Positions 3,956 to 45,024 of a stretch of 64,000 nucleotides of DNA are shown here, piece by piece. The DNA comes from Lachnospiraceae bacterium. Lineage in GTDB: Bacteria; Bacillota; Clostridia; Lachnospirales; Lachnospiraceae. The translations under genes were made by a program, and so were the position numbers. Below the pieces are notes generated by a model, which saw only the letters and a program-made list of their open reading frames with translations, searched no databases and had not been told where the DNA came from. The stretch's first letter is position 1. Every line of letters begins with the position of its first letter. The DNA lies in assembly GCA_022510545.1 (NCBI GenBank), contig JAFLTG010000003.1:4662-68661 (forward strand), given 5' to 3'.

Positions 3956-3977
3956 ATGCAAATCCGGAGGAATAGAT

Positions 3978-24331: not shown

Positions 24332-24379
24332 TGGGAAATATTGTATGAAATGTTTTCAGATGTAAGAATGAGGTCTTTT

Positions 24380-25498
24380 ATGCAAAAAGAATTGATGAGT
24401 ACGGATAAGATGGCAATGCTGGATAATGCCTGTGATGAACTTCTTTCATATGGTATATGGGATGCCAAAACCACATTTAAAAATTTAATAAAAAAAGTTC
24501 TGCTCAGACAAATTACTGCCCCGGAAGATACGATATTCTGGCCTAACGGGCTTCTGGCATCCGCATTATGGCATAACAGAAACTCGGCCTCAGTTACATT
24601 GCAGAATAAAATTGATATCGTGCTGGCAGAGTATTTTAATAGATGGGAAAAAAGGAAGACCCCAATATTTTATCTGGATGATTTACTTTCGGGCGAAACG
24701 TTTCTTGCAATATATGAGCAATACATTAACGATAAACAATCAAAAAGCAAAGCGAATGACCAAGGCAATATAATAAATGATCGTAACGAACTTAAATATA
24801 AAAATGCACTTGACAAATTTGCAGAGTATGCCCTCAATTATCCGACAGATGAAACCGGCAGCTTCCCATATCGTGCCGCTCAAGGCACCGGACATATATA
24901 TGTCGATTCTATCGGTCTTGCCTGTCCTTTTTTATATGAGTATGGCAATTATAATAAAAAGAATGAATATATGGAGCTTGCCCTAAAGCAGATAGCTAAT
25001 TTCCTTGCTTATGGGATTGATACGGCAACCGGTCTGCCTTACCATGGCTATGATGTGACAACCGGAATCAGGTACGGCATCATAGGCTGGGGACGGGCTG
25101 TCGGTTGGCTCCTTCGCGGAATGACAGGTTGTATGACAACCGATTACGGAAAAGAAAGACTGAGTGAGGCCTATATTTCATTGACCGATTCGGTCATTGC
25201 ATGGCAGAGAAAAGATGGCAGCTTCTCATGGCAGCTTCAGGCAGTTGAAGGACCTGCTGATACCTCGGCAGCCGGAATGATATGTGTTGCGCTGAATAAA
25301 GGTCTGCAAATGAATATTTTACGGGGAGAAAGTTATGAGAATGCATTGGAACTTGGAACCCGCGCAATACAAAAATCCATTAAAAATGGCAGGGTGTATA
25401 ACTGCTCAGGAGAATGTGAAGGATTTGCACAGTATCCGCAGCGCTACGGAGCTTATCCATGGTCGCTGGCACCGGCGTTGATGCTGCCATCTATATGA
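24380..25498 (+). CDS. Glycoside hydrolase family 105/88-like protein
   Basis: A protein of about 372 residues with the alpha6/alpha6-barrel signature of unsaturated glucuronyl/rhamnogalacturonyl hydrolases (YteR type). YVDSIGLACPFL contains the expected catalytic Asp, and GWGRAVGWLLRG matches the conserved RxxGW helix. The start at 24380 has AATGAGG six bases upstream; in-frame starts at 24341 and 24350 are weaker. No signal peptide is present, so it should be cytosolic. A hydrolase among biosynthesis genes is odd: it could recycle or edit uronate-containing fragments produced by a lyase, or have changed function. Confidence 0.75.
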   Translation: MQKELMSTDKMAMLDNACDELLSYGIWDAKTTFKNLIKKVLLRQITAPEDTIFWPNGLLASALWHNRNSASVTLQNKIDIVLAEYFNRWEKRKTPIFYLDDLLSGETFLAIYEQYINDKQSKSKANDQGNIINDRNELKYKNALDKFAEYALNYPTDETGSFPYRAAQGTGHIYVDSIGLACPFLYEYGNYNKKNEYMELALKQIANFLAYGIDTATGLPYHGYDVTTGIRYGIIGWGRAVGWLLRGMTGCMTTDYGKERLSEAYISLTDSVIAWQRKDGSFSWQLQAVEGPADTSAAGMICVALNKGLQMNILRGESYENALELGTRAIQKSIKNGRVYNCSGECEGFAQYPQRYGAYPWSLAPALMLPSI

Positions 25499-25552
25499 CG
25501 AAATCAGAGAAATAAACAAAAACAGGACTTCGGTATGGAGGAATAGTATAAA

Positions 25553-26488
25553 ATGATAATAATAAAAGCAATGGGCGGACTGGGAAACCAGTTGCAGCAG
25601 TATGCATTGTATAAGAAATTTGAGAGCATAGGAAAAGATGTGCGGCTGGATGTTTCGTGGTTTAAAAATCCGGATATACAGTCGGAGGTGATGGCGGAAA
25701 GAAAGCTGGAGCTTGACTATTTTGAGGGAGTATCCTATCGAGAGGCCTCACCGGAAGATATAAAAAGCGTGCTTGGCAGAACACTAGATCAAAAGGAATC
25801 AGTGGGAGCCAAATTTAAAAGAAAACTTTTCCCTGCTGCTAATCCTACCTTCACTGAAACTGATATGTACCATGAAGAGATTTTCCGGTTTACGGACAAG
25901 TATCTGGAAGGGTATTGGGCTTGTGAGAAGTACTACGCAGATATTCTCAAGACACTTAGAGAAGAAATCAGGTTCCCCAGACAGGATAAAGATATAAGTG
26001 AGCAAAACGAAGCTGCCATCAGCAGAATGGAGGAAACCGTTTCGGTAAGTGTTCATATCCGCAGGGGGGATTATCTGGATGCTGCAAATAAAGCTATTTT
26101 TGGAGCGATATCGACTGAGGCATATTATAAGTCAGCCATAGCCTATATTAAAGAACGTAACCCTGAAGCGATATTCTTCTTTTTCTCAGACGATATTCCA
26201 TATGTAAAGGAACATTATAACGAAAAAGAATGTGAATATGTGGATTGGAACAATGGTAAAAACAACTTCTATGATATGATGTTGATGAGCCATTGTAAGC
26301 ACAATATAGCAGCAAACAGTACTTTCAGCTTCTGGGGCGCAAGGCTTAATCCGGCACCGGATAAAATAATGATTCGGCCTTCTATTCATAAAAATACTCA
26401 GGTCTGTATTCCAAAACAAATGCAAGAGCTTTGGACAGACTGGGTACTCATTACACCACAGGGAAAAGTAGTGGGAGGAGAAAATTGA
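25553..26488 (+). CDS. Alpha-1,2-fucosyltransferase-like, GT11
   Basis: A 311-residue GT11 enzyme with MGGLGNQLQQYALYKKF at the N-terminus, HIRRGDYLD near residues 166-174 and AANSTFSFWGA near the C-terminus. It is a paralogue of the protein at 7587. GTATGGAGGAAT precedes the ATG. It probably transfers L-fucose from GDP-fucose to a second position or a second repeat unit. Its last four bases overlap the next gene, a Wzy-like polymerase. Confidence 0.9.
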   Translation: MIIIKAMGGLGNQLQQYALYKKFESIGKDVRLDVSWFKNPDIQSEVMAERKLELDYFEGVSYREASPEDIKSVLGRTLDQKESVGAKFKRKLFPAANPTFTETDMYHEEIFRFTDKYLEGYWACEKYYADILKTLREEIRFPRQDKDISEQNEAAISRMEETVSVSVHIRRGDYLDAANKAIFGAISTEAYYKSAIAYIKERNPEAIFFFFSDDIPYVKEHYNEKECEYVDWNNGKNNFYDMMLMSHCKHNIAANSTFSFWGARLNPAPDKIMIRPSIHKNTQVCIPKQMQELWTDWVLITPQGKVVGGEN

Positions 26489-27996
26489 AAAAATTAACTC
26501 TTGAAGAAGTCTTTTATTTTGCTTTTTTTATTCTGTTATCTGTTACAAAGGGATTGGGGTTTTATGAGGGACAGGCAGTATTTAAACTTCTTGTCATACC
26601 TGCATTTGTATGTGTACTCATAAAGATTTTTATTACCCCGTATACCCTGCGTCAATGGATAGTGCAGATTGCTTTATTGTGTCTGACCGCCCTGGTGTAT
26701 TTGCAATCAAGGCAGTTTGGAATACTTTTTATAATGTTTACAATGCTGGGGATGAAAAATATCTCTGTAAAGAAGACGTTTAAAATAGGCCTATGGATAT
26801 GGTCGCTGTGTGCCATAGTGCTAAGCATATTTTCATTTTTCAGACTGGAACACACCATATACAGAGTTCATCCTAAAATGGGCCTTGGACCGATATTCCG
26901 CTGGAGTCTTGGATTTACACATCCAAATATATTGCATATTACTTACTTTGTATTATGCGCATATATAATTTATGAACTTGCAGACCGTTATGCGCTTAAA
27001 CATTTTATGATACTGATGCTTGGCAATGTGCTTGTGTTTGTTTATTCTATAAGCTATACAGGTTTTGGTATCACAGCCCTGCTTCTTGCAGGCGGCGTTT
27101 ATGTAAAAATAAGACCGAAGTTTAACTTAGTGGAGAAAATAGCTTCCAATCTTTTGCTGCCGGTTATTATTGTGGTTTCATTTGTACTGCCGCTTATTCT
27201 ATATATGCCCTGGGTACAAAAATTAAATGACATATTGGGTTCCAGAATATTGCTGGCCAACATCTTTTTGATTCCGGAGTTTATAAGCCCTTTTGGAGTA
27301 AAAACCACAGATATATTAATTTCATCCATAGCCTTAGACAGTTCTTATATATGGAGCTTTATAAATTATGGCATCATTCCGTTTGTATTATTTATGCTTG
27401 CCTATCTTATTCTCGTTGCATATTACAGCCGCGAGCAGAAAACACGGGAGCTGCTTATTATAATCTGCTTTTTGGCTGCGGGATTTACGGAACAGTTGTT
27501 ATTTAATTCTTCGTTTAAAAATATAACATTGCTTTTTCTTGGGGAACTCCTGTTTAGACAAAAAGAAAATGCCAGGGAATACTGTCTTATTCCGGCATTG
27601 CAGCGGGATATAGAACTGCCGGTTCCTCACCTGACCATAACCGCGCCGCCACTCAAAAAATGCTTTGCATTAATTGCTACCGGTGTGGTTATTGCCGTTA
27701 TCCTGTGCACCCTTCTTAGAACCGAGCCAAACGGCTATATCGTGCCAAGAGTTTATACAGACGGCTTTGCCAAGGACTCTTTCATTTATCTGGAAAGCGA
27801 TGAGGCACCGGAGTATGACGGTTATGTGGTAATGAATTATCAGGGACCCGATACTCCTATGCAGGTTTTTGAAGGAAATGCTGTCCGGATTGAAACTTTC
27901 AGATATTATCTGGGAAGTATACTGATTGGGGGATTTGCAGGGTATCTGCTGTATGCAGCCTATATGTTTTGCATAAATAGGAAGCTTATAGTATAA
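26485..27996 (+). CDS. Wzy-like polymerase (O-antigen ligase/polymerase class)
   Basis: A 503-residue membrane protein of about 11-12 helices. The start is the TTG at 26485, overlapping the previous stop and preceded by GGGAGGAGAA; the longer opening from 26431 has no such site. SLGFTHPNILHITYF resembles the conserved Wzy motif also seen at 13104 (GHPNAL). The last 100 residues form an extracytoplasmic segment ending in one more helix. It would polymerise lipid-linked units outside the membrane. Assignment rests on topology and one motif. Confidence 0.7.
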   Translation: MKKLTLEEVFYFAFFILLSVTKGLGFYEGQAVFKLLVIPAFVCVLIKIFITPYTLRQWIVQIALLCLTALVYLQSRQFGILFIMFTMLGMKNISVKKTFKIGLWIWSLCAIVLSIFSFFRLEHTIYRVHPKMGLGPIFRWSLGFTHPNILHITYFVLCAYIIYELADRYALKHFMILMLGNVLVFVYSISYTGFGITALLLAGGVYVKIRPKFNLVEKIASNLLLPVIIVVSFVLPLILYMPWVQKLNDILGSRILLANIFLIPEFISPFGVKTTDILISSIALDSSYIWSFINYGIIPFVLFMLAYLILVAYYSREQKTRELLIIICFLAAGFTEQLLFNSSFKNITLLFLGELLFRQKENAREYCLIPALQRDIELPVPHLTITAPPLKKCFALIATGVVIAVILCTLLRTEPNGYIVPRVYTDGFAKDSFIYLESDEAPEYDGYVVMNYQGPDTPMQVFEGNAVRIETFRYYLGSILIGGFAGYLLYAAYMFCINRKLIV

Positions 27997-28009
27997 TAGT
28001 TTACGTAAA
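27969..28009 (+). promoter_or_regulatory. Possible promoter and palindrome before the GT39-like gene
   Basis: A perfect TATAAT (27992-27997) lies 17 bases after TTGCAT (27969-27974), within the end of the polymerase gene. Only TTG of the -35 box matches. A 10-base palindrome TTTACGTAAA follows at 28000-28009. The start of the next gene is 38 bases further. It is a weak candidate for an internal promoter with an operator-like site. Confidence 0.3.
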
Positions 28010-28047
28010 ATAGAAATATTATCATGATGCATAAAAAGGAGCATGTC

Positions 28048-29886
28048 ATGTTGATATTACCGGTAATATCCGTTTTAATGATATATATAAATATTGGATT
28101 ATATAAGAAATTCATAAGAAAAGAACAGGCTGATGGTACGTTGTCTATGCTGTATAGTATCTCGATAAGTACTCTGATAATTCTGGCGGCAAACGAAACC
28201 TTATCTTTATTTCATGCAATTCATTATATTTCACTCTTATTGTTATGGTTTATAGTTGATATATTGCTATTGTTTTTATGTATTTTTATTATAAGAAAAT
28301 ACAGGGTTCCGTTATCAGAAATCAAATATTTATTTATCTTTTCCAAAAGTATTTTCAATCCTATTGATATAATTGTATTGATTGTGTGTGGTACCGCGAT
28401 TTATATGTCAGCAAGAACGGTTCCTTATAATTGGGATTCTATGACCTATCATCTTACCAGAATAGCACATTGGGTTCAAAATGGTTCCGTTGCCCATTAT
28501 GTCTGCCATGATATTAGTCAGATTTCTGCGCCGCCACTGGCGGAGTTTGTAGTTTTGCATATTTATATCTTATCCGGATGCAGTGACTACTTTGTTAATT
28601 TGCTACAGACATTTTCCTATCTTGTATCAATTTTTCTTGTTTACAAAATCAGTGATAAAATTGGCTGTAATCGATTTTTTGGTTCACTTGCCGCTTTGAT
28701 ATTTGCCACATCACCAATCGTATTTGGAGAAGCTCTTTCTACACAGGTAGATATGTATTCGGGTATGTGGCTTATGTTTTTTGTTTACCTGAGTTTGTAT
28801 TTTACTGATATCAAATCTAAATTGCAATGGAATCTCCATTCAATAAGCAGGCTGATTTTGATGGGAATGAGCGCAGGATTCGCTTATCTTGCCAAACCTT
28901 CCGTGTGTATCGCTGCATTTGTTTTTGTGATCTGGATATTGATTGTCTGTATCATTAGGAAGGACAAGCTTGCTCTTGTTGTTAAATGTGCAATAAGTCT
29001 TGGGCTTATAGCATTGATAATAGTATTGCCGGAAATGATAAGAAATTTTATTACTTTTCATAGCATATCTTCATCTGAAACAAGTACCGAATTTTTGGTT
29101 TCATCATATGCTCCGGGGTATCTATTCTGGAATCTGGTTAATAATATCAAATTCAATCTGTCACCCCGGAATCTGTCTATGCATCATGACAATGCAACTA
29201 ACCCGCTTATCATCGGCTTGATGCTTCTAGCCATCGTATGCGGAATAATGATAGAAATTAAAAAGCGTTTGAAAGGAAAGCCGGGAATAGAACTTAAAAT
29301 GTCTGAGAGTTACACTGTTGCAAGTATAGTTTCTATGTTGATATTCTGCACCGTTGTACAGTGGTATCCGTTTATCACCCGTTATGAAATCGGTTATCTG
29401 GCATTGCTTTCCCCGGCGGTTATGATAGTGTTTCAATATGTATTTGATAATAGAAAAGCTCTGCAATATGTTTTTGCGGCGGCAATTATCGCTATAAGCA
29501 TAGTAACCTTTTTGGTAGGAGTTCGATATCATAGCGGTTTTCTGGCGGTAGAGGGAAAGCGGTTTGAACAGTATTTTGCCGGCAGGGAAAAGTATGAATT
29601 TTATAAAGAAATTTCAGATGATATCATAGAGAATAAATATGAAAGCGTTGGGTTTTTGTGCGGTAACGATAGTTATGAATATCCGCTTTGGAAAATGTTA
29701 GAAAATTCTATGAGTAGATTTGAGCATGTTATTGTTGATAATGAAACAACAATTTATGATAATCAGGATTTCCTGCCGGACTGCATTATTTCAGTAGACG
29801 TTGAACCTGATGATGAAATAATATGCCATGGCATAGCTTATCAATTGGTAAGGGATGTCTCCGGAGTAAAATTATTTGTACATTGA
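28048..29886 (+). CDS. GT39/ArnT-like membrane glycosyltransferase
   Basis: A 612-residue polytopic protein with about a dozen helices and a short soluble C-terminus. The first large loop contains NWDSMTYHLTRIAHWVQNG near residues 130-148, where the Asp corresponds to the catalytic acid of GT-C enzymes such as ArnT and PMT. The start at 28048 has AAAAGGAG six bases upstream; ATGs at 28024/28027 do not. It would use a polyprenyl-phosphate sugar outside the membrane to add a side group to a polymer. The gene looks AT-richer than its neighbours by eye. Acceptor is unknown. Confidence 0.72.
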   Translation: MLILPVISVLMIYINIGLYKKFIRKEQADGTLSMLYSISISTLIILAANETLSLFHAIHYISLLLLWFIVDILLLFLCIFIIRKYRVPLSEIKYLFIFSKSIFNPIDIIVLIVCGTAIYMSARTVPYNWDSMTYHLTRIAHWVQNGSVAHYVCHDISQISAPPLAEFVVLHIYILSGCSDYFVNLLQTFSYLVSIFLVYKISDKIGCNRFFGSLAALIFATSPIVFGEALSTQVDMYSGMWLMFFVYLSLYFTDIKSKLQWNLHSISRLILMGMSAGFAYLAKPSVCIAAFVFVIWILIVCIIRKDKLALVVKCAISLGLIALIIVLPEMIRNFITFHSISSSETSTEFLVSSYAPGYLFWNLVNNIKFNLSPRNLSMHHDNATNPLIIGLMLLAIVCGIMIEIKKRLKGKPGIELKMSESYTVASIVSMLIFCTVVQWYPFITRYEIGYLALLSPAVMIVFQYVFDNRKALQYVFAAAIIAISIVTFLVGVRYHSGFLAVEGKRFEQYFAGREKYEFYKEISDDIIENKYESVGFLCGNDSYEYPLWKMLENSMSRFEHVIVDNETTIYDNQDFLPDCIISVDVEPDDEIICHGIAYQLVRDVSGVKLFVH

Positions 29887-29921
29887 TAATAAGCCTTTAG
29901 CATATTTCAAAAAGGAGAATT

Positions 29922-31844
29922 ATGAACAAAGATTTAACGTATTGCAGAATTTTAAAAACTGACATCAATGTCACAAATATGTCAGATACCATTAACTATA
30001 TCACAGAGAATCTGGATGCTTTAAGAGGTAACTACATCTGCGTTTCCAACGTGCATACGACGGTAATGTCATTTCGTGATGCGAAGTACCGTAAAATCCA
30101 GAATGGCGGTGCAATGGCATTGCCCGACGGACAACCGCTTTCGATTGTGAGCCGTATGAGGGGATATCATAATGCCAGAAGAGTTCCGGGACCGGATTTG
30201 ATGCCGGCTATTTTGAAACTTTCTGAAGAAAAGGGTTATACCCACTATTTTTATGGAAGTACGGAAGATACCCTTTCAGAATTGAAAAAGGCGATTTTAA
30301 AAGCTTATCCGGCACTGCAGATTGCCGGAATGTATGCGCCGCCTTTTAGGGAGCTGACTAAGGAAGAGGACGAGCAGATTGTAGCAAAAATCAATGAATC
30401 TAAACCGGATTTCGTTTGGGTGGCTCTTGGTGCGCCTAAGCAGGAAATCTGGATGTATGATCATAAAGACAGGGTAAACGGTCTTATGATTGGCGTGGGA
30501 GCCGCATTTGATTTTATAGCAGGAACGGTGAAGAGGGCTCCGATGTGGATGCAGAAGCTGTGTCTGGAATGGGTATTTCGCATTATTCAGGATCCTAAAA
30601 GGATGATTCCCAGATATCTGAATACAAATTTTGCATTTTTATATCATACCCATAGGGAAAATGTATATTTAAGCAAGAAAAGAAAACAAAAGAAAAAAGC
30701 CGGTAAAAAACTGAAAATTGCAATGATAGGGCATAAGAGGATACCGTCAAGGGAAGGCGGTATAGAGATTGTTGTAGATGAGCTGTCTGTCAGACTGGCA
30801 AAAATGGGGCATAAAATTGATGCCTATAACAGATATGGTCATCATGTCTCCGGTAAGAAGTATGATGAGGAATACGGACGAGGAGACAGAAAATACTATA
30901 AAGGAATCAGGATACGTATAATACCTACCTTTAGAAGCAGCAAATTAAATGCTATTGTATATTCGTTTCTGGCAACGCTCCGGGCCCTTTTTATACCTTA
31001 TGATGTAATGCATTATCATGCCGAAGGCCCCTGCGCTATGCTGTGGATACCTAAATTGTTCGGTAAAAAGGTGGTCGTAACGGTTCACGGTCTGGACTGG
31101 CAGCGGGCAAAGTGGGGAAGATTCGCCTCTTTTGTAATTAAATTCGGTGAGAAAATGGCGGCAAAATATGCTGATGAAGTCATAGTATTATCTAAGAATG
31201 TGCAAGATTATTTTAAAGATACTTATGGACGAAATACTGTGTTTATTCCGAATGGAATTGACAGGCCGGAAAAACGAAAGGCTGAATTAATAACGGAGAA
31301 ATACGGGCTTGAAGAAAACGGTTATTTCCTCTTTCTCGCAAGGATTGTTCCGGAAAAAGGTGCTCATTATCTGATTGAGGCATTCCGCGGCATTGATACG
31401 GATAAGAAACTGGTGATTGCGGGCGGCAGCAGTCAGGCATTTGATTATATGGAAAAAATTCACCGCATGGCGGCTGAAGATGATAGAGTTATTATGACCG
31501 ATTTTGTGCAGGGACAGATTCTGGAAGAATTGTATTCCAATGCCTATGCTTTTGTACTGCCAAGTGATGTGGAGGGAATGGCGCTTTCGCTATTGGAGGC
31601 AATGAGTTACGGAAACTGTTGTCTGGTAAGTGATATCAGTGAAAATACGGAAGTGACAGAGGATAAAGCCCTTGTTTTTGAAAAGGGCAATATAGACGAT
31701 TTGAAAAATAAGCTGGAATATATGCTTCAGAATCCTGAAAAAGTGGAAGAATATAAGAAACAGAGCAGTGATTATATATGTGGGAAGTATAATTGGGATG
31801 ATGTTGTTGGGCAGACTGTAGAGATATATTCCCGGTGTAGATAG
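29922..31844 (+). CDS. Fused WecG/TagA-type (GT26) and GT4 glycosyltransferase
   Basis: A 640-residue two-domain protein. Residues 1-245 are a WecG/TagA/CpsF domain with MALPDGQPL, PDFVWVALGAPKQE and GVGAAFDFIAGTVKRAP. About residues 255-640 are a GT4 (DUF1972-type N-half) with IPSREGGIEIVVDELS, VVTVHGLDWQR, FLARIVPEKGAHYL and DVEGMALSLLEAMSYG. The GT26 part would act on the first lipid-linked sugar made by an initiating enzyme, and the GT4 part would add the next sugar. AAAAGGAG precedes the ATG, and no frameshift separates the domains. Such fusion ties two consecutive steps together. Confidence 0.9.
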   Translation: MNKDLTYCRILKTDINVTNMSDTINYITENLDALRGNYICVSNVHTTVMSFRDAKYRKIQNGGAMALPDGQPLSIVSRMRGYHNARRVPGPDLMPAILKLSEEKGYTHYFYGSTEDTLSELKKAILKAYPALQIAGMYAPPFRELTKEEDEQIVAKINESKPDFVWVALGAPKQEIWMYDHKDRVNGLMIGVGAAFDFIAGTVKRAPMWMQKLCLEWVFRIIQDPKRMIPRYLNTNFAFLYHTHRENVYLSKKRKQKKKAGKKLKIAMIGHKRIPSREGGIEIVVDELSVRLAKMGHKIDAYNRYGHHVSGKKYDEEYGRGDRKYYKGIRIRIIPTFRSSKLNAIVYSFLATLRALFIPYDVMHYHAEGPCAMLWIPKLFGKKVVVTVHGLDWQRAKWGRFASFVIKFGEKMAAKYADEVIVLSKNVQDYFKDTYGRNTVFIPNGIDRPEKRKAELITEKYGLEENGYFLFLARIVPEKGAHYLIEAFRGIDTDKKLVIAGGSSQAFDYMEKIHRMAAEDDRVIMTDFVQGQILEELYSNAYAFVLPSDVEGMALSLLEAMSYGNCCLVSDISENTEVTEDKALVFEKGNIDDLKNKLEYMLQNPEKVEEYKKQSSDYICGKYNWDDVVGQTVEIYSRCR

Positions 31845-31894
31845 CCACCGCATATGTTGTGATATATAAATGCGGGATAAAGCGGGTGATAAAC

Positions 31895-33175
31895 GTGAAA
31901 GTATTAATGGTAAATAAATTTCTCCATCCAAACGGTGGGTCGGAAACTTATATTTTCGAACTTGGAAAACAGCTGATGGATATGGGGCATGAGGTGCAGT
32001 ATTTTGGAATGGAACATAAGGGCAGGATTGTAGGCAACAGGGTGAACAGCTACACTTCGGATATGGATTTTCATACCGGAAAACTGCAGAAACTTTTTTA
32101 TCCATTTAAAATAATTTATTCTTTGGAGGCAAGAAAAAGAATAAGGGCGGTACTTAAGGACTTTCAACCGGATGTTGTACATCTTAACAATATTAATTTT
32201 CAGCTTACTCCGTCAATCATATATGAAATAAGGAATTTTGAGAAATATCAGAATAATCAGAACGTTGAAAAAAGTCAAAGCGGCAATAGAAAGTTCGTTA
32301 AAATTGTATACACCGCACATGACTACCAGTGGGTCTGCCCCAATCATATGATGATGATACCCTCAAATGAGAAACTTTGCTTTGCATGCAAAGGTGGTAA
32401 ATTTGGGGCGTGTACAAAGAATAGATGTATACACAACTCTCTGATAAAGAGCATTCTTGGCAGTATCGAAGCTTTTTATTATAAGTGGCGAAAGACCTAT
32501 GCGCTGGTCGATGTAATCATATGTCCGAGCAGGTTTATGAAAAAGCAGCTGGATACCAATCCCATACTGGCTAAAAAAACGGTAGTGATGCATAATTTCA
32601 TAACTGGAACAAAACTTAATGGGGCAGAAGCTGACAGAGAATGGCAGCAGCTTAAATCAAAACTTCCTGAAAAATATGCTTTGTACTTTGGGCGCTTCAG
32701 TACGGAAAAGGGTGTGGAAACTTTATTAAACGTATGTATAAAAACGTCGCAAATCAACTATGTGTTTGCCGGAACAGGTCCGCTTGAAGAGGAGCTTAAT
32801 CGGCTGGACAACGTGACAAATGTAGGATTTGTACGTGGAATTGCGCTACAGAATCTGATAAGACAGGCACAGTTCAGTCTTTATCCTTCGCAGTGGTATG
32901 AGAACTGCCCGTTTTCGGTAATGGAATCACAGATATACGGGACTCCTGTTGTCGCAACAAATATCGGCGGAATACCGGAACTTATAGAGGACAAAGTTAC
33001 AGGAGAACTGTTTGAGACGGGTAACCAGTCACATCTTGAGGAAAAAATAATAAGACTCTGGAATCAGCCGGAACTATGCCTGAAATACAGCGAAAACTGT
33101 AAAAACATAAAATTCGATACAACTGAGGAATATTGTGGTAAAATGATAAGTGATATATACAGAAAGCAGGTATAA
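31895..33175 (+). CDS. Glycosyltransferase family 4
   Basis: A 426-residue GT-B enzyme. The GTG at 31895 (GGGTGAT upstream) gives the typical start MKVLMVNKFLHPNGGSETY; an earlier in-frame start at 31859 adds an atypical leader. A cysteine cluster (CPNHMMM, CFACKGGKFGACTKNRC) lies around residues 150-190 and could bind a metal, as in some GT4 subfamilies. The C-terminal part has LYFGRFSTEKGVETL and WYENCPFSVMESQIYG. Sugar transfer to the lipid-linked unit is likely. Confidence 0.88.
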   Translation: MKVLMVNKFLHPNGGSETYIFELGKQLMDMGHEVQYFGMEHKGRIVGNRVNSYTSDMDFHTGKLQKLFYPFKIIYSLEARKRIRAVLKDFQPDVVHLNNINFQLTPSIIYEIRNFEKYQNNQNVEKSQSGNRKFVKIVYTAHDYQWVCPNHMMMIPSNEKLCFACKGGKFGACTKNRCIHNSLIKSILGSIEAFYYKWRKTYALVDVIICPSRFMKKQLDTNPILAKKTVVMHNFITGTKLNGAEADREWQQLKSKLPEKYALYFGRFSTEKGVETLLNVCIKTSQINYVFAGTGPLEEELNRLDNVTNVGFVRGIALQNLIRQAQFSLYPSQWYENCPFSVMESQIYGTPVVATNIGGIPELIEDKVTGELFETGNQSHLEEKIIRLWNQPELCLKYSENCKNIKFDTTEEYCGKMISDIYRKQV

Positions 33176-33179
33176 GAGA

Positions 33180-34187
33180 TTGGCAAGAAGAACTTTGTAC
33201 GGAACCGTAATCGTGACATATAGATGCAATGCGCACTGCAATATGTGTGACTGCTTCCGTGACCCGTCAAGACCGGAAGAGGAAATCACCCTTGAAGATA
33301 TTAAGAAGCTGCCGGAAATGGCATTTACCAATATTACCGGCGGTGAGCCTTTTGTCAGACAGGATATACCGGATATAGTCAGGGAGCTTTATAAAAAATC
33401 TGACAGGATTGTCATTTCTACAAACGGTTATTTTACCGATAGAATCATAGCTCTCTGTAAGGAATTTCCCAAGGTTGGAATCCGTATCAGTATAGAAGGC
33501 CTGCAGGAGACAAATGATGCGATAAGGGGCATTCCCGACGGTTTCAACAGAGGTTACAATACATTAAAGACTCTGGTTGAAATGAAACATCCTGATGTCG
33601 GTTTTGGTATGACGGTACAGGATATGAACTGCGAAGACCTTGTGCCGCTTTATAATATTGCCAATGATATGGGTATGGAGTTTGCAACCGCAACCTTGCA
33701 TAACTCCTTTTATTTCAGAAAGACAGACAATAAGATTGACGATAAACTCAAAGTATCACGCAATTTTGAAAAGCTTATAAACGAGCTTTTGAAGTCTAAA
33801 TCACCTAAGAAATGGTTCAGAGCCTATTTTAATCATGGGCTTATTAATTATATATACGGCAATAAGAGACTTTTGCCCTGCGATATGTCAAAGAACGCAT
33901 TCTTCATAGATCCGTTTTGTGATGTTATACCTTGTAACGGTATGGAGAAAAAGGCGGTTATGGGAAATCTGCGTGAGCAAAGCTGGGACGAGCTGTGGAA
34001 TTCCAAACAGGCGGAGGAGGTCCGTAAGTGTACTAAGGAGTGCGACAGGAATTGCTGGATGATAGGAAGTGCATCGCCTGCCATGCATAAGTATATATGG
34101 GTACCGGCCTGGTGGGTGGTGAAACATAAGTTCTTCAAGCGCGGGAAGTATAGCCTTAAAGAAAATAAGTTTATTGAGAATATTTAA
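33180..34187 (+). CDS. Radical SAM/SPASM-domain enzyme
   Basis: A protein of about 335 residues. The radical SAM cluster CNAHCNMC is near residues 16-23, followed by the GGEPFVR motif that helps bind S-adenosylmethionine. The C-terminal part has SPASM-like cysteines (LPCDMS, FCDVIPCNG, KCTKECDRNC) for extra iron-sulfur clusters. The TTG at 33180, nine bases after AGCAGG, is chosen; a GTG at 33150 overlaps the preceding gene. Such enzymes do radical chemistry on peptides, sugars or lipids. In this setting a sugar or lipid-carrier modification is possible, but I cannot name the substrate. One dispersed dyad is inside (33401). Confidence 0.85.
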   Translation: MARRTLYGTVIVTYRCNAHCNMCDCFRDPSRPEEEITLEDIKKLPEMAFTNITGGEPFVRQDIPDIVRELYKKSDRIVISTNGYFTDRIIALCKEFPKVGIRISIEGLQETNDAIRGIPDGFNRGYNTLKTLVEMKHPDVGFGMTVQDMNCEDLVPLYNIANDMGMEFATATLHNSFYFRKTDNKIDDKLKVSRNFEKLINELLKSKSPKKWFRAYFNHGLINYIYGNKRLLPCDMSKNAFFIDPFCDVIPCNGMEKKAVMGNLREQSWDELWNSKQAEEVRKCTKECDRNCWMIGSASPAMHKYIWVPAWWVVKHKFFKRGKYSLKENKFIENI

Positions 34188-34238
34188 TGCGGATAAACCA
34201 GAGGGTCATACATTATTTAAGGAGAAAGAACAGGTTCT

Positions 34239-35336
34239 ATGGGGCGTTTGAAAAATAAGATAGAACAATTAAAATTTGCAATATATTGTTTCAAAAAGGG
34301 GCAGGATAGCCGATTTGTAAAAACCGTGAAACAGCTCACCGATAAAAATAATCTGATATATGTAGAATCGTACGGTGATAAACAAAATGACGATACCGTT
34401 TTTTTCATAGATATGGAGGAGTCACATTCAGGTTTTTTTGCCGAGCATAATCGTTTGCTTGCCATGCTTTATTTTGCGGATAAGTATGATATGAAGCCGG
34501 TGGTGAGGTATCACAAAGGTTATTGCTATGCGGAGAAGCAGCCTGTAAACGGGACTACCAATCCTTTTGAGTATTATTTTGAACAGCCTGCGGGGATAGG
34601 GTTGAAGGAGCTTAAGTCGTTTAAGCGGGTATTCAGGAGCAGAAAAGAGAATAGCTACGAAGTAAATAAGCTTTGTGATGACCCGAACGGATATACCAGA
34701 AGTGAAGAGTATTTAAATGAGATGGCGAGGATTACGGCTAAATATATTCGTCTTAATTCTATAGTAAAAGAAAGAATGGATGAAGAAATCTTAGGATTGC
34801 TCAAAAATGACACAAGTGTCACAAATGATTCGGCTGTTATAACTGATGGAAGTGACATAGATGGAAAAGCAATCAAGGTTCTGGCTGTACATGTAAGGGG
34901 AACGGATTTTAAGCAGAACTTCAACGGGCATCCCGTGAGTGTGGGTACTGACGAATATCTGGAAATGACTGTACGTACATTTGAAAATGGCGGTTATGAA
35001 AAGGTATTTCTGGCTACGGATGACAGTGAAGCACTGAATAAATACCGGAAACAGTTTGGCAATAAATTGGTGTTCTATCAGGATGTGGTAAGAAGCGACG
35101 GTAATGATACGGTAATGCACAGCCAGATGTCCAGGGAAAACCACCATTATCTGCTTGGATATGAGGTGCTAAGGGATATGTATACGCTTGCAGCCTGCGA
35201 CGGATTGATTGCAGGTCTGTCTCAGGTAAGTTATGCCGCCCGTATACAGAAGAAGAGTACCGGTAAGGAATACAGCGATTTAATAATACTGAATAAGGGA
35301 ATCAATTATCATAAGAAAAATAACTGTCCTTCATAA
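34239..35336 (+). CDS. GT23/NodZ-like fucosyltransferase-fold protein
   Basis: A 365-residue soluble protein. LAVHVRGTDFK near residues 213-223 resembles the GDP-fucose-binding HVRRTDK motif of alpha-1,6-fucosyltransferases (GT23, NodZ). VFLATDDSEAL near 253-263 and GLIAGLSQVSYAA near 325 fit the C-terminal donor domain of the same fold. GGAGAAAG precedes the ATG. It may be a third kind of fucosyl or related transferase in the cluster. Only motif-level similarity is visible. One dispersed dyad lies at 34808. Confidence 0.62.
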   Translation: MGRLKNKIEQLKFAIYCFKKGQDSRFVKTVKQLTDKNNLIYVESYGDKQNDDTVFFIDMEESHSGFFAEHNRLLAMLYFADKYDMKPVVRYHKGYCYAEKQPVNGTTNPFEYYFEQPAGIGLKELKSFKRVFRSRKENSYEVNKLCDDPNGYTRSEEYLNEMARITAKYIRLNSIVKERMDEEILGLLKNDTSVTNDSAVITDGSDIDGKAIKVLAVHVRGTDFKQNFNGHPVSVGTDEYLEMTVRTFENGGYEKVFLATDDSEALNKYRKQFGNKLVFYQDVVRSDGNDTVMHSQMSRENHHYLLGYEVLRDMYTLAACDGLIAGLSQVSYAARIQKKSTGKEYSDLIILNKGINYHKKNNCPS

Positions 35337-35391
35337 AAACTTTGGTGTTCCATCTATTGATAAGGATGTTAAAAAGGGAGTAAAAATAACC

Positions 35392-37149
35392 GTGATAAAA
35401 CAACTGTCTTATATATTTAACCGTAAAGAAAAAATAAAGATTTTTATTTTATTTATAGTGGCAGTTATCGGAAGTCTGCTTGAGTGCGCCAGCGTAGGCG
35501 TTTTTCAGCCGTTTGTGGAGTTGTTTATGGACCCTGCGGCGATACAGGGAAATGAATATCTGAATTACGCATATAATCTATTTGATTTTCAATCATCCAA
35601 AGATTTCCTTAGCGCAATGGCTATTGTAATTATGGCTATTTTTATAATCAAGAACATATATCTTATTATTGAAAAATATGCTATATATACTTTTTCATAT
35701 AATGTGCAGATGAAGATATCTACAGGTTTGCTCAAGGCTTATGTCAGCGAACCTTATACTTTTCATCTGAATAAAAATATCTCTGTTCTTCAAAGGAGCG
35801 TACAGGAGGACTCAGACCTTTTTACCAAGGCAATCATACATTTTATGGAACTGGTAGTGGAAGTTATGGTATGTATCGCACTTGGGATTTATCTTTTTGA
35901 CGTCAGTAAGTCGATAACGGTTATAGTAGTAAGCCTTCTTATCATCTGTGTAGGAATATTTACTGCGATCTCCAGGAAGTTTGCAAGAGAACTTGGAAAA
36001 GACGCCCAGGAATATAAGGCAAAACTTTATCAGTGGATGAATCAGTCACTTGGCGGCATAAAGGAAGTTAAGGTTCTAAACAGAGAGATGTTCTTTATCA
36101 ATTCTTATTCGGGATATTTTAAGAAGTATGTTAAAGGACTTAAGGTAAGCAGATTGATAGGGGCAATACCTAAGTATATAGTTGAAATGGTAAGTATAGC
36201 CGGACTCTTGCTTGCGCTGATAGTTAAAATAAATTACGGACAGACGAGTGACCTTGCGGTATTTGTTCCGCAGCTTTCGGCTTTCGCGGTTGCGGCATTT
36301 AGGCTTTTGCCTTCCATTGGACGTATTAACGAGCACGTTACCGGTATCATGTATGCGGCACCGTCCATCGAACTTGTCTATCATGACCTGAAAGAGGTAG
36401 AGAACATAAAGAGTCTGGAAAGCCGTGAAGAAGGAGTGCTTTCACTGGAAAATGAGCTGGTTATAAAAGATGTATGTTATCATTATCCCGATAATGAAGA
36501 TAATGTAATTGATTTTGCAAACTTTACAATTAAAAAAGGTCAGACAGTAGCTTTGATAGGAGAATCCGGAGCCGGCAAGACTACTATGGCGGATATTATT
36601 CTGGGTCTGCTCACTCCTCAGTATGGAAAAATTAATGCGGATGGCGTAAATATTTTTAAAAATATGGATAAGTGGCACCATGGCATCGGATACATCCCTC
36701 AGACCATATATCTGTCTGACGATACAATTCGCAACAATGTAGCGTTTGGTGTCAATGAAGATGAGATTGACGATGCAGCGATAGAAAATGCGCTAAAAAA
36801 AGCACAGCTCTGGAATTTTGTAGAAGGTTTAAACGATGGACTCGAGACCTTCGTAGGTGACAGAGGTGTCAGGTTGTCCGGCGGACAAAGACAGCGAATC
36901 GGTATAGCGAGAGCGCTTTATCATGATCCCGAAATCCTGATTCTGGACGAGGCTACCTCTGCTCTGGATAATGACACCGAGGCTGCGGTAATGGAGGCCA
37001 TAGAAAACCTGCGTGGTGAAAAAACAATGATCATTATAGCCCACAGACTCACCACAATTCGCAATGCGGATATGATCTACGAGGTTGCGGAGGGTAAAGT
37101 TGAGCCAAGGAGCAAACAAGATGTTCTTCATCAAAATTCCGCGGATTAA
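35392..37149 (+). CDS. ABC exporter, fused membrane and ATPase domains (MsbA/PglK-like)
   Basis: A 585-residue half-transporter starting at a GTG, with AAAGGGAG about 11 bases upstream. The membrane domain covers about 1-320. The ATPase domain has Walker A GESGAGKTT near 390, PQTIYL, signature LSGGQRQR near 494, Walker B ILILDEATSALD and IAHRLTT. It is a paralogue of the exporter at 8504, sharing the GDRGVRLSGGQ segment. It likely flips a lipid-linked oligosaccharide as a homodimer. Keeping two such transporters suggests two glycan substrates or a recent duplication. Confidence 0.9.
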   Translation: MIKQLSYIFNRKEKIKIFILFIVAVIGSLLECASVGVFQPFVELFMDPAAIQGNEYLNYAYNLFDFQSSKDFLSAMAIVIMAIFIIKNIYLIIEKYAIYTFSYNVQMKISTGLLKAYVSEPYTFHLNKNISVLQRSVQEDSDLFTKAIIHFMELVVEVMVCIALGIYLFDVSKSITVIVVSLLIICVGIFTAISRKFARELGKDAQEYKAKLYQWMNQSLGGIKEVKVLNREMFFINSYSGYFKKYVKGLKVSRLIGAIPKYIVEMVSIAGLLLALIVKINYGQTSDLAVFVPQLSAFAVAAFRLLPSIGRINEHVTGIMYAAPSIELVYHDLKEVENIKSLESREEGVLSLENELVIKDVCYHYPDNEDNVIDFANFTIKKGQTVALIGESGAGKTTMADIILGLLTPQYGKINADGVNIFKNMDKWHHGIGYIPQTIYLSDDTIRNNVAFGVNEDEIDDAAIENALKKAQLWNFVEGLNDGLETFVGDRGVRLSGGQRQRIGIARALYHDPEILILDEATSALDNDTEAAVMEAIENLRGEKTMIIIAHRLTTIRNADMIYEVAEGKVEPRSKQDVLHQNSAD

Positions 37150-37197
37150 GAGATCGTGAAAATTATTGCAGATTGAGGGAAAGGTATAGGGATTGAT

Positions 37198-38070
37198 ATG
37201 GATATTAAGAGATTAGTCAAAGACATATTGGCACAGATTGATTACTCCCTATATCGTGCAAACTTAAAAAAATACAATATCAAGGTGCATACAATTGAGG
37301 AAACAATAGACGAGCTTATAAATACTGATAAAAGCCTGATAAGATACGGTGACGGTGAAATAACTATGATACGCGGCAGAAGTCTGTTGCTTCAACAGGT
37401 GGAGCCGGAACTTATAGAAGGACTTAAACGCCTGCTTGCATATGACCATGACGACCTTATAATCGCCATACCTGAAATCTTTGGCGATCTGTCAATTTAT
37501 ATTAAAAAAAGCCGGATGTTCTGGAAAGACCATTTGCTTTTCAGTCGTAAGTATTATGAAAAATACTGCAATCCGGACAGGGAATACTATAATGCTTTTA
37601 TATCCAGATTTTATTATTTTTACGATGATAAAAGTAAATGTGCCTCGTGGATAGAGAGGATGAAGCAAATCTGGAAAGACAAAGATGTGGTAGTGGTAGA
37701 AGGAGGACGCACCCACAATGGCGTGGGAAATGATTTGCTTGACAGCGCCGGAACGGTGGAGAGAATAATAGGTCCAAGCAGTGATGCTTACGCCAAGCTG
37801 GATGAAATAATGGAATGCTGTAGACAATATCCTAAAGACAGGCTGTTTCTTATATCCCTTGGCATTGCTGCGAAATTCCTTGCTGAACGGCTTTTTCTGG
37901 AAGGTTACCGTGCCCTGGATATCGGGCATCTGGATATGGAGTATGAATGGTTTCTTAACAAGGTAAACAAAAAAGAAAAGATACCTAAGCATGACGTAAT
38001 CGGGGAAGAAGCGAACTTGAACGCAGGCTATACGGAATATTTATCACAGATAAAATACCGTGTGGAATAG
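37198..38070 (+). CDS. GT-D fold glycosyltransferase (DUF1792, SP_1767 family)
   Basis: A 290-residue protein with SLIRYGDGEITMIRG near residues 46-60, the signature of the DUF1792 family. VVVVEGGRTHNGVGNDLL near 164 and LFLISLGIAAKFLAERL near 220 complete the pattern. The founding member, from Streptococcus parasanguinis, extends an O-linked glycan on a serine-rich adhesin and defined the GT-D fold. Here it probably adds glucose or a similar sugar to a glycan, but whether to a lipid-linked oligosaccharide or a protein is open. AGGGATT precedes the ATG. Confidence 0.88.
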   Translation: MDIKRLVKDILAQIDYSLYRANLKKYNIKVHTIEETIDELINTDKSLIRYGDGEITMIRGRSLLLQQVEPELIEGLKRLLAYDHDDLIIAIPEIFGDLSIYIKKSRMFWKDHLLFSRKYYEKYCNPDREYYNAFISRFYYFYDDKSKCASWIERMKQIWKDKDVVVVEGGRTHNGVGNDLLDSAGTVERIIGPSSDAYAKLDEIMECCRQYPKDRLFLISLGIAAKFLAERLFLEGYRALDIGHLDMEYEWFLNKVNKKEKIPKHDVIGEEANLNAGYTEYLSQIKYRVE

Positions 38071-38145
38071 TTGAATCTGAACTCTTGAAGGAGTAGATAG
38101 AAGCTTGTGCCTAATGTTTGAGAATACAAGGAAGGTTTACTAACT

Positions 38146-39291
38146 ATGAAAGTAATATACATGTCACACAGATATCATACAAACCAGACCACTATAATGA
38201 AGGGCTGGAAAGAGAATGGGCATGAGGTCAGATTCCTCAGCCAGTATGCCGGGAAGATTGAGGACTATGCCTATGTAAAACCTATTGTGGTAGGCTACTC
38301 GGCACTTTTCAGGGCATTTGATTATATATATATAAATTTTTTGAGAAGAAAAGATCCCGCCGCAATCGATATGAAGCTGAAACTTGGCATACCGCCGATT
38401 TTTAAGCTGGCTAAATATATTAAAGAATTTAACCCTGACTTGGCGATTATCAGGGAGCGCTCCATATATACCATATGCATGAATGCGATATGCAGGCACT
38501 ATAAAATTCCGACGATAATATATAATCTGAGTCCTGTCTGGGATAAGCCCAAGAAGATGGATCTGGCACATAAGATTGTGTGGAAGCTTACTCCCAAGTA
38601 CAGGATTACTCCGACGAACCTGGTAGGTATAGATTTTACGGGACTGGTTAAGGATGAGAATGCATACTGGGCGCCGTTTTTGATGGAGCCGCAGCTTCCG
38701 CCCGAGAAGAAAACCTATTTTGCAAATGATAGAATCAATATCTTCTGTATCGGCAAGTATCAGGAGCGCAAGAATCATCAGATGATGATAGAGGCAGTAG
38801 AAGAGCTGCTTCCAAAGTATGACCTTCATCTGACGATTGCAGGTGAAATGTCTAATCATTTTCATGAAGAATATTTTAAAAAAATTAATGATTATGTAAA
38901 AGCGCATAAGCTGGAGGATAGATTGACTTTCCTGGTCAATCTAAACAGAAAAGAGATAGCGAAAGAATACGAAAAAGCAGACGTATATGTGGTTCCAAGT
39001 ACCGGTGAACCGGCATCCATAACTGTTATAGAGGCAATGGCTTATTCTGTGCCTGCCATCAGCGGAAGCGATAACGGAACCGCAAGCTATATAGATTACG
39101 GCAAGACAGGCTATGTCTTTGAAGATAACAATAAAGAGGATTTGAAGGACAAGCTTGAGAAGATAATATGTGACAGGGATAATCTTGTCAAAATGGGCGC
39201 CGCGGGATATAAGCATGTGGAGGATAACTTCCAGTTTAAGAATTATTATGAGCAGATAGAGGCTATCAGAAAGAGGCGTGAACAGGAGTAA
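38146..39291 (+). CDS. Glycosyltransferase family 4
   Basis: A 381-residue GT-B enzyme with N-terminal MKVIYMSHRYHTNQTT and C-terminal IFCIGKYQERKNHQMM, DVYVVPSTGEPASITVIEAM (EX7E region) and PAISGSDNGTASYI. CAAGGAAGG lies about 13 bases upstream. The 75-base gap before it holds a GAAGGAG without a usable start. It presumably adds one sugar to a repeat unit. Donor unknown. Confidence 0.88.
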   Translation: MKVIYMSHRYHTNQTTIMKGWKENGHEVRFLSQYAGKIEDYAYVKPIVVGYSALFRAFDYIYINFLRRKDPAAIDMKLKLGIPPIFKLAKYIKEFNPDLAIIRERSIYTICMNAICRHYKIPTIIYNLSPVWDKPKKMDLAHKIVWKLTPKYRITPTNLVGIDFTGLVKDENAYWAPFLMEPQLPPEKKTYFANDRINIFCIGKYQERKNHQMMIEAVEELLPKYDLHLTIAGEMSNHFHEEYFKKINDYVKAHKLEDRLTFLVNLNRKEIAKEYEKADVYVVPSTGEPASITVIEAMAYSVPAISGSDNGTASYIDYGKTGYVFEDNNKEDLKDKLEKIICDRDNLVKMGAAGYKHVEDNFQFKNYYEQIEAIRKRREQE

Positions 39292-39310
39292 GCTAAGAGA
39301 GAGGAAGTAT

Positions 39311-41854
39311 ATGACGTTTATAAATCGGATGAAAAGCAGTTTTAAGGTTTCATATTTAATTAATATAATATTTATTGCCCTTATTTTTACTGCCTGTTTG
39401 TGGGATGTTGGATCTCTTGAGAGGATAAGGGTAGTGGATGATGGCTTTTGTTATTGGGGAATAGCGGCAACTCTTTCAGGTTATGACTGGATAGACCTCA
39501 TATCCGGCTGTGCATACTATTCGTATGGCTATAGTATTGTTTTGATTCCTTTGTTCTGGCTGTATAGATTGGGAATATCCATGACTGTTCTTTACCGGAT
39601 TTCAATTGTGCTCAACGCATTTTTTTTAATTGGAATCTATTTTATGACGTTGTATATGCTTAAAGAATTGTTTAAAGAATTTCCGGATGTATTAAAACAT
39701 ATTATAGGCTTTTTTGTTACGTTGTATATAGGAAATGTTGCTCAAATGGGACTGGCATGGTCTGAAACATTTTTATGCTTTATGTTCTGGTGTGTCATTG
39801 TCTGTCTTTACCGCGTGCTCAGGAAACCGGGATACGGAAATCTTTTGGGTTTAGCTGCTTCGTCAGCGGCCTTGTTTGCAATTCATATGCGCTCCATTGG
39901 AGTGTTGATTGCAGTCATTTTGATCATCTTATGTTTCTTCATAACTCACAGGAAAGAAATAAATAAAAAATATATTATTTATACCATAGGCATTTCGGCA
40001 TTTTTCTGCTGTCTGATTCTTGTGATGAAAGGTTATGTTAGTAACAATATTTATCTTGGTAATGCTGAATCCTCTACCAATAATGTACAGGCAGGTATAT
40101 CCCGCGTTGGAAGACTGTTTAGTATTAACGGCCTTATGGATTTTGCAGTAAGCGTTATAGGAAAGCTTTATTATATCAGTTCAGCCACTTTTATGTTGGC
40201 TGTAATTGGAGCCTTAGCAGCGCTCATAAGCATCATCTGCAGTTTGAGAAAGAAAGGATCAATGGCCAGGCGGGAAAAATGGCAGAAAAAAGAGTGGATG
40301 ACAGTATTTTTTCTTTTATCCCTTCTGGCAGAAGTCGGAATAGAGGCATTATTTCAGTGCTATTCATTTTTCAGAGTGGCGGGAGCCGTTGGCAGAGATG
40401 ATGCGCTTGCATTCGGGCGTTATGCGGACTTTGTTATTGGACCGATGCTCATTTTGGGCGTATGGACTGTATATAATTTGAGAGAACATTATAAAGAAAT
40501 CTTATTCTGCGTTCTTATAACAATTGCCGCTACCGGAATTGTTCAATTTTTCTATAATATAATAGAATTTCGTAAAGGGCATGATTCTGTCTCGTTCAGA
40601 TTTGCTGCTTCTCCGTGGCTGTCGGTGATAGCCACCGGACACAATACTGATTTTGCCTGTTATGTGACGCTGATTAGTATTTCGGTGCTTTTATTGCTCT
40701 GTCTGACAAGACTTTTTTCAAAAATAAAATGGTATGGTTTTGGCGTAATATTACTGGTTATGACTGCGGTATGGAGTGTTCTTGGTGTAAAAGGAGGAAT
40801 GGAATATACAGCCGCTAAGACAGATAAAGTAAAGCTTGTAGATACCGTTGCAGAGATTATAGAGACAACAGGGGCAGAGACACCTGTTTATATGATTGGA
40901 CAGCCCAACACAGAGGTGAAGATTCTACAGTGGCTTCTTGCAAAACGTAGTATTCATACCTGCGATTTGGAGAATATAGATGATATTGATATGGCGCATG
41001 CTGTCTTATTGGGGAATTCCAATGAAGCAGAGACGGTGGCCAAACTCAGTGACCGGTTGGAGCTTTTGTATGATGCAGGCAGTATTTCCGTATTTGCAAA
41101 TAAGGAGAATAAATTATACGAAAAGCTGTCCGCAAAGGCAAAAGAAATGACATTCGTGTCAGATGATACGGTTAACAAGCTGTCACTATCTGATCTGGTA
41201 ACTGACTTGAGTTATACAAATATGATGGGGCAAATGTTTTATAATTACCAATCATCTGATGGCGGATATATGACGAAAGAAACGGGTGTCATATCAGGAG
41301 ATGGAATTTATGAATTTGTAATTGATATGCGTGCCACTGAGTGTGAACCGAATACAGAAATAGGCTATATCACCGTAGGTGATGTTAATGGCAATATTCA
41401 GTATACGCAGAGTCTGAGTGCAAATGATTTTATTGAGAGACCGCGGCAGGATATCAGTGTTTTGGTAGAAGTGAAGGATTGGATAGAACCTGTCGTCGGA
41501 CTTTATACAAATGGAAAGGCTGCGATTAATGTATTTAATATCTCATATAGAAAAAAAACAGGCAATATACAGCTTGATTCGGAAGAAATTGCAGAGATTG
41601 CTGCATTTCTAGGAGAGCAGGACCAAAAAGAAGTATATTATATTGATAGTGACAATAGCGGGCTTACAGGCTTTCCATGGTGGGAATATGGAGACCTAAA
41701 ATATCTGTCGGGGAATATTATTGCGTATAAAGAAAACTTTGAAGATTCTCAATATATCGCCGAAAAAACTGACACAAGTGTCATTAATGCTTTAAAAGCT
41801 ATTATGGAGCCACTATATGAGACAGAAGGATACATTGTTTTAGCCACTCATTAA
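39311..41854 (+). CDS. Large GT-C-like membrane protein
   Basis: An 847-residue protein starting at 39311 (AGAGGAAG upstream). About 12 helices occupy the first 500 residues, and the last 350 are soluble and probably outside the membrane. The first loop contains VVDDGFCYWGIAATLSGYDW, where the Asp pair could be the GT-C catalytic acid. I do not recognise a named family. By architecture it would use a polyprenyl-phosphate sugar to modify an exported polymer. Two dispersed dyads lie in its 3' part (41148 and 41770). Confidence 0.6.
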   Translation: MTFINRMKSSFKVSYLINIIFIALIFTACLWDVGSLERIRVVDDGFCYWGIAATLSGYDWIDLISGCAYYSYGYSIVLIPLFWLYRLGISMTVLYRISIVLNAFFLIGIYFMTLYMLKELFKEFPDVLKHIIGFFVTLYIGNVAQMGLAWSETFLCFMFWCVIVCLYRVLRKPGYGNLLGLAASSAALFAIHMRSIGVLIAVILIILCFFITHRKEINKKYIIYTIGISAFFCCLILVMKGYVSNNIYLGNAESSTNNVQAGISRVGRLFSINGLMDFAVSVIGKLYYISSATFMLAVIGALAALISIICSLRKKGSMARREKWQKKEWMTVFFLLSLLAEVGIEALFQCYSFFRVAGAVGRDDALAFGRYADFVIGPMLILGVWTVYNLREHYKEILFCVLITIAATGIVQFFYNIIEFRKGHDSVSFRFAASPWLSVIATGHNTDFACYVTLISISVLLLLCLTRLFSKIKWYGFGVILLVMTAVWSVLGVKGGMEYTAAKTDKVKLVDTVAEIIETTGAETPVYMIGQPNTEVKILQWLLAKRSIHTCDLENIDDIDMAHAVLLGNSNEAETVAKLSDRLELLYDAGSISVFANKENKLYEKLSAKAKEMTFVSDDTVNKLSLSDLVTDLSYTNMMGQMFYNYQSSDGGYMTKETGVISGDGIYEFVIDMRATECEPNTEIGYITVGDVNGNIQYTQSLSANDFIERPRQDISVLVEVKDWIEPVVGLYTNGKAAINVFNISYRKKTGNIQLDSEEIAEIAAFLGEQDQKEVYYIDSDNSGLTGFPWWEYGDLKYLSGNIIAYKENFEDSQYIAEKTDTSVINALKAIMEPLYETEGYIVLATH

Positions 41855-41935
41855 AGTTTGCACGAAACTAACGAAAATATTAATGAAAAATATCAGTGTG
41901 TGAACTGTGTAACAAGAGACAGTATGGGGCTTGGC

Positions 41936-41964
41936 TTGCAATATTGTATTACTTGTAATATAAT
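41936..41964 (+). promoter_or_regulatory. Internal promoter before the teichoic-acid module
   Basis: TTGCAA (41936-41941) and a perfect TATAAT (41959-41964) are separated by exactly 17 bases, a good sigma-A-type arrangement. They lie in the longest intergenic gap of the window (41855-42021). A perfect 6-base inverted repeat, TATTAC-TT-GTAATA (41947-41960), covers the spacer and runs into the -10 box, so it could be an operator. Transcription would begin about 50 bases before the gene at 42022. Confidence 0.55.
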
Positions 41965-42021
41965 AAGCGGGATATATATGGCGGAAAATGTTAATATGTA
42001 AAGAGGGAAAAGGAAAGGTTC

Positions 42022-44186: not shown

Positions 44187-44257
44187 GATGCAGAAGCAAA
44201 ATGTAAACAGAGAGAATACGTATTGAGACAGAGCAGATTGAGTATTGGAGGTGTATT

Positions 44258-44980: not shown

Positions 44981-45024
44981 GACGAACTACGTTTGTCTGT
45001 AAGTCCAAAAGTGGGAGATAAAAA

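Follow-up and report, generated by a model that had tools for sequence, protein, structure and literature searches.

What does a radical S-adenosylmethionine (SAM) enzyme do in a bacterial surface-polysaccharide locus? The gene that raises this question lies at 33180-34187 in a 64,000-nucleotide stretch of contig JAFLTG010000003.1 from a gut Lachnospiraceae bacterium, hereafter termed the window; the source genome comprises 2.85 Mb in 178 contigs. Radical SAM enzymes acting on sugars are so far known mainly from antibiotic pathways. Slow evolution like that of RpoB, together with retention of the same two transferases across Clostridia and Bacteroidota, argues that the enzyme probably makes a radical change to a surface sugar and not to a peptide. 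We favour, at a probability of roughly 45%, the reading that the protein is a dedicated glycan-assembly enzyme performing a BtrN-like two-electron oxidation of a conserved, probably lipid-linked sugar. The function is a prediction. Both the RpoB-like constraint and the constant transferase pair were unexpected and go beyond a preliminary description of the same DNA.

The radical enzyme is as conserved as RpoB

The loci compared were the best 80 of 198 and are biased to high identity; neighbouring genes in the same loci served as internal control. Across 81 loci the median pairwise identity of the radical enzyme was 92.3%, while that of the neighbouring genes (glycosyltransferases) was 49-72%. 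Identity at fourfold degenerate sites was 41% for the radical enzyme and 34-42% for those neighbours, synonymous sites being saturated. Since divergence at these sites matches that of the neighbours, the high identity reflects purifying selection, and recent horizontal transfer was rejected as its cause. In an independent sample of 200 family genomes, the radical enzyme was present in 22. Members of the window subfamily were 87-94% identical to the window protein; in the same genomes RpoB reached 85-93% and RlmN, an ordinary radical SAM enzyme, 64-75%. The radical enzyme is thus under extreme purifying selection, as conserved as RpoB. Such constraint within a fast-changing locus is puzzling and speaks for a single, fixed substrate. 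A conserved enzyme in an otherwise variable locus suggests that it acts on an unvarying portion of the polymer (primer, linker or core) and not on the variable repeat.

Two glycosyltransferases accompany the radical enzyme

Two transferases encoded directly upstream emerged as constant partners.

29922..31844, plus strand: WecG/TagA/CpsF-type transferase fused to a DUF1972 GT4 that resembles the Cps2T rhamnosyltransferase; its GT4 half is the other constant partner
31859..33175, plus strand: GT4 glycosyltransferase and constant partner; in 64 of 81 loci it directly precedes the radical enzyme

Within the fusion protein the N-terminal half is of the WecG/TagA/CpsF type, and the C-terminal DUF1972 half scores best against the Cps2T rhamnosyltransferase (126 bits, cut-off 500). 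The GT4 of 31859 (at least 54% identity) was found in 19 of the 200 genomes, 18 of which also carry the radical enzyme (Fisher p=7e-21). The GT4 half of 29922 (at least 52% identity) occurred in 26 genomes, including all 22 with the radical enzyme (Fisher p=1e-25); both p values are indicative, as the sampled genomes are related. In two genomes the GT4 lies away from the radical enzyme, on another contig in G007 and about 11 kb off in G107, so the association is not due to adjacency alone. The radical enzyme is near-obligately associated with these two specific glycosyltransferases, which themselves diverge to about 55-60% identity.

Transferases of the WecG/TagA and Cps2T families attach the initial sugars to a lipid carrier, and for this reason we propose that the substrate is a constant saccharide linked to a lipid. 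We consider it an even bet that the proteins form an undescribed radical SAM subfamily which makes an unusual surface-polysaccharide sugar on a constant, transferase-built (perhaps lipid-linked) saccharide, not on a free nucleotide sugar. A search of open-licence papers turned up no account of a radical SAM enzyme in connection with exopolysaccharides, nucleotide sugars or undecaprenyl.

The gene trio is kept in distant relatives

Close relatives of the window protein come from Lachnospiraceae. A sister subfamily, termed B, is ~70% identical, about 390-395 residues long and has a C-terminal tail. The trio GT4 - radical SAM - DUF1972 GT4 is kept in members of 37-53% identity (L142, L143, L146-L148) and also occurs on a Segatella copri plasmid, i.e. 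in another phylum (Bacteroidota). The radical enzyme is no local oddity; it is a widespread, strongly conserved family across Clostridia and Bacteroidota. Old transfers do occur: the S. copri plasmid copy nests within subfamily B, which is movement between phyla.

Subfamily B genes were found on plasmids of S. copri (L145, NZ_CP085934.1) and Pseudobutyrivibrio xylanivorans (L144, NZ_CP043029.1), with insertion sequence elements near. The natural fusion of WecG/TagA/CpsF and DUF1972 GT4 at 29922-31844 is unfused in most subfamily B genomes. L146-L148 (MT836080, MT836979, MT836413) are UNVERIFIED, unannotated 'Bacteriophage sp.' records in which the radical SAM gene is flanked by a GT4 on either side; they resemble polysaccharide loci of bacteria and not phage DNA. 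Searches of viral contigs for deeper relatives of the radical enzyme gave nothing useful.

A twitch enzyme with one predicted auxiliary cluster

The gene and its cysteine motifs are located as follows.

33180..34187, plus strand: twitch-type radical SAM enzyme, 335 residues, TTG start, PF04055 and PF13186
33225..33248, plus strand: CX3CX2C (CNAHCNMC, C16/C20/C23), predicted ligands of the SAM-binding cluster, invariant in 28 of 28 diverse members
33879..34055, plus strand: twitch auxiliary-cluster region, C234-X12-(G; C247 here)-X4-C252 ... C288-X3-C292, aligning with BtrN residues 163-226

The open reading frame (ORF) is intact, with matches to PF04055 (E=9e-14) and PF13186 (E=3e-9, passing its cut-off). 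Relatives begin with a Met that is in register with the TTG start at 33180, and an in-frame GTG is located at 33150. By its CX3CX2C motif, which the preliminary description had correctly read as complete, and its fold domain, the protein is assigned to the radical SAM superfamily. It is a predicted oxygen-sensitive radical enzyme, and the radical half-reaction appears safe by homology.

A full SPASM domain holds seven cysteines (CX9-15GX4C-gap-CX2CX5CX3C-gap-C) and two clusters, whereas the truncated twitch form binds one (PMC6231123). As twitch we counted a truncated SPASM with CX9-15GX4C and a downstream cysteine pair. Among the 28 members, down to 37% identity, only C16, C20, C23, C234, C252, C288 and C292 are invariant family-wide, leaving an auxiliary set of four cysteines in the arrangement C-X12-G-X4-C ... 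C-X3-C. Read with the published definition (PMC6231123), these four identify the family as predicted twitch enzymes with one auxiliary cluster. The SPASM-type cysteines noted earlier are thus present, in the truncated form for one cluster; a seven-cysteine SPASM domain with two auxiliary clusters was rejected, because invariance extends to just four auxiliary cysteines. Cys247 takes the place of the motif glycine in the subfamily of the window protein. Here C25 and C151 are invariant as well, and C247 and C284 nearly so. The whole family has no invariant spare cysteine in the 28 members; the divergent member L142 contains eight cysteines in all, seven of them cluster ligands.

Likeness to BtrN and the proposed chemistry

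The sugar enzymes BlsE and BtrN are among the structures closest in sequence or fold. BtrN, a twitch 2-deoxy-scyllo-inosamine dehydrogenase, was matched by profile A2 with a whole-sequence E=8e-9. The match covers both halves, is colinear in two stretches and places C252 over the cysteine of BtrN 'VLPC'. Searched on its own, L142 also matches the BtrN twitch region (E=0.004). Shared features are CX3CX2C and a predicted four-cysteine twitch auxiliary site, with C252 on a BtrN auxiliary ligand. The window family differs from BtrN in its setting (a glycan locus, not an aminoglycoside cluster), in low overall identity, in length (335 residues for the window protein, about 390 in subfamily B), and in three conserved motifs, HNSxYF, RAYFN and a PxxW segment that is C-terminal. 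All ligand positions of the BtrN auxiliary cluster are taken by four cysteines, and this cluster is proposed to act as the electron acceptor in a two-electron oxidation of a sugar alcohol (PMC6231123, PMC9012708).

By analogy, the 5'-deoxyadenosyl radical would take a hydrogen from a carbon of the conserved sugar made by the two partner transferases, the sugar probably being carried on undecaprenyl diphosphate during this step. A fully ligated auxiliary cluster would then accept the remaining electron, completing a two-electron oxidation. The product would be a keto- or dehydro-sugar, as with BtrN, which later enzymes may retain or reduce. If true, surface polymers of abundant gut and rumen bacteria would hold sugars that escape routine sugar analysis or for which no pathway is known, and the gene would be a candidate for rare sugars like those reported from Butyrivibrio exopolysaccharide.

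Several observations weigh against this reading. The similarity to BtrN is modest, the best PDB sequence match of the radical domain is SkfB, a peptide enzyme, and functions of twitch and SPASM enzymes are not predictable from sequence networks (PMC6231123). The subfamily cysteines C25, C151, C247 and C284 could act as hydrogen donors or as extra ligands. A simple small substrate does not account for RpoB-like constraint, and the close GT4 partner is missing from 4 of the 22 enzyme-bearing genomes. Action on a lipid-linked sugar is our inference, and in the window protein the conserved C-terminal PxxWxxxxK segment is not amphipathic by its hydrophobic moment, which gives no support to an amphipathic membrane helix there.

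Alternative reactions and substrates

Among other reactions, a NeoN/HygY-like radical epimerase survives best, although we regard it as unlikely. After removal of the hydrogen, a cysteine would return one on the other face, giving the polymer a rare sugar such as L-altrose or L-iduronate. Like the window family in our reading, NeoN and HygY are radical SAM enzymes acting on sugars. NeoN-type epimerisation acts on finished glycosides in neomycin (PMC10991966), and a title cited in the same paper describes HygY as twitch. The hydrogen donor in NeoN is Cys249 (PMC10991966), but no spare cysteine is universal in the family, as the eight cysteines of L142 illustrate. In the window subfamily the invariant C25 and C151 could act as donors for an epimerisation. 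Because NeoN uses a cysteine donor and none is universal here, oxidation is favoured over epimerisation, tentatively and at somewhat less than even odds.

A different radical reaction of the glycan or its lipid carrier (dehydration, deoxygenation, BlsE-like decarboxylation of a uronic acid, formation of a carbon-carbon or carbon-sulphur link) is improbable. Action at the level of the carrier would fit a constant substrate in variable loci, and BlsE, a cytosylglucuronate decarboxylase with a sugar substrate, is the top structure match and also a sequence match. This similarity is limited to the common radical domain, and the BlsE model TIGR04466 gives 37.8 bits at a cut-off of 400. The first structure model, from a shallow alignment, had a pLDDT (predicted local distance difference test) of 52 and the second, of moderate quality, a mean of 67, so that the fold ranking was not used as proof. 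The best solved neighbours of the model, BlsE and SkfB, reflect mostly the shared radical domain.

Equally improbable is that the enzyme modifies a protein or peptide, maturing a surface peptide, one of the glycosyltransferases or another envelope protein, and owes its place in the locus to this role. Most SPASM enzymes work on peptides or proteins, the radical domain is closest to the sactisynthase SkfB, which also has a twitch domain, and conservation of RpoB strength would suit a protein partner. The partner transferases, however, at about 55-60% identity hardly suit a highly conserved interface between proteins, and a peptide system could not be traced. Intergenic small ORFs within 6 kb were present in 60 loci, and none recurred in over 6 of these, in agreement with the earlier remark that no peptide substrate gene lies nearby. 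The gaps flanking 33180-34187 are 4 and 51 bp, and the largest gap across 25498-42022 is 167 bp. An N-terminal peptide-recognition (RRE-like) domain was not found; the radical SAM domain starts at residue 10 of 335 and leaves no space for one. All NCBIfam peptide-maturase and cofactor models listed, including MoaA, scored far below their cut-offs. The preliminary description had taken grouping with a characterised family acting on peptides or tRNA as a sign against a sugar role; no NCBIfam equivalog reached its cut-off. The best score, over near-full length, came from TIGR03961 (uncharacterised PTO1314 family radical SAM protein; 90.4 bits, cut-off 306). The partner GT4 gave 56.7 bits (cut-off 400) with TIGR04157, a glycosyltransferase of a Bacteroidetes system with radical SAM. 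A maturase of ribosomally synthesised and post-translationally modified peptides was therefore rejected, as a recurrent precursor ORF, an RRE-like domain and a peptide-maturase model above cut-off are all lacking.

A glycan role of the radical enzyme is thus quite likely. Of the earlier proposal of radical modification in a sugar pathway, the glycan part is supported by the linkage to two glycosyltransferases, the trio in distant relatives and the lack of peptide features; a sugar, a nucleotide sugar or the lipid carrier may each be the substrate.

Other genes of the locus

The locus is a long same-strand run of polysaccharide genes encoding GT2, GT4, GT11 and GT-D types, ABC (ATP-binding cassette) transporters and a polysaccharide pyruvyl transferase; glycerophosphotransferases lie further downstream. 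Immediately after the radical enzyme follow:

34239..35336, plus strand: unassigned protein, weakly FUT8/GT23-like (E=0.035, cut-off missed), accessory, a relative in only 16 of the loci
35392..37149, plus strand: PglK/MsbA-like ABC transporter, in ~69 loci, median identity 57%
37198..38070, plus strand: GT-D fold glycosyltransferase of the same locus
38146..39291, plus strand: GT4 glycosyltransferase of the same locus; in relatives it is the gene that most often follows the radical enzyme (38 of 81)

The radical enzyme had been placed between a GT4 and a GT23-like protein. The upstream GT4 stands, and the downstream likeness to GT23/FUT8 is sub-threshold.

Within the biosynthetic run a GH88-type protein (unsaturated uronyl hydrolase) is encoded at 24341-25498 and recurs in 59 loci (median identity 52%); a catabolic-type hydrolase is odd for a synthesis locus. 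Two CDP-glycerol-type glycerophosphotransferases, an IspD-type cytidylyltransferase and a short-chain dehydrogenase/reductase (SDR) at 42993-47236 form a teichoic-acid-like module beside the exopolysaccharide genes. SDR homologues were also found at the radical SAM locus of several distant relatives. Upstream, at 3921-7572, a DUF362 protein and an ATP-grasp-like protein are encoded amid glycosyltransferases. CotH-kinase proteins recur in the loci of many relatives, where they are encoded two genes ahead of the radical SAM gene (L012:6818-8686 and relatives), and on pNP95 (L144) a CotH protein adjoins a polyphosphate-polymerase-domain gene and a DUF4956 gene.
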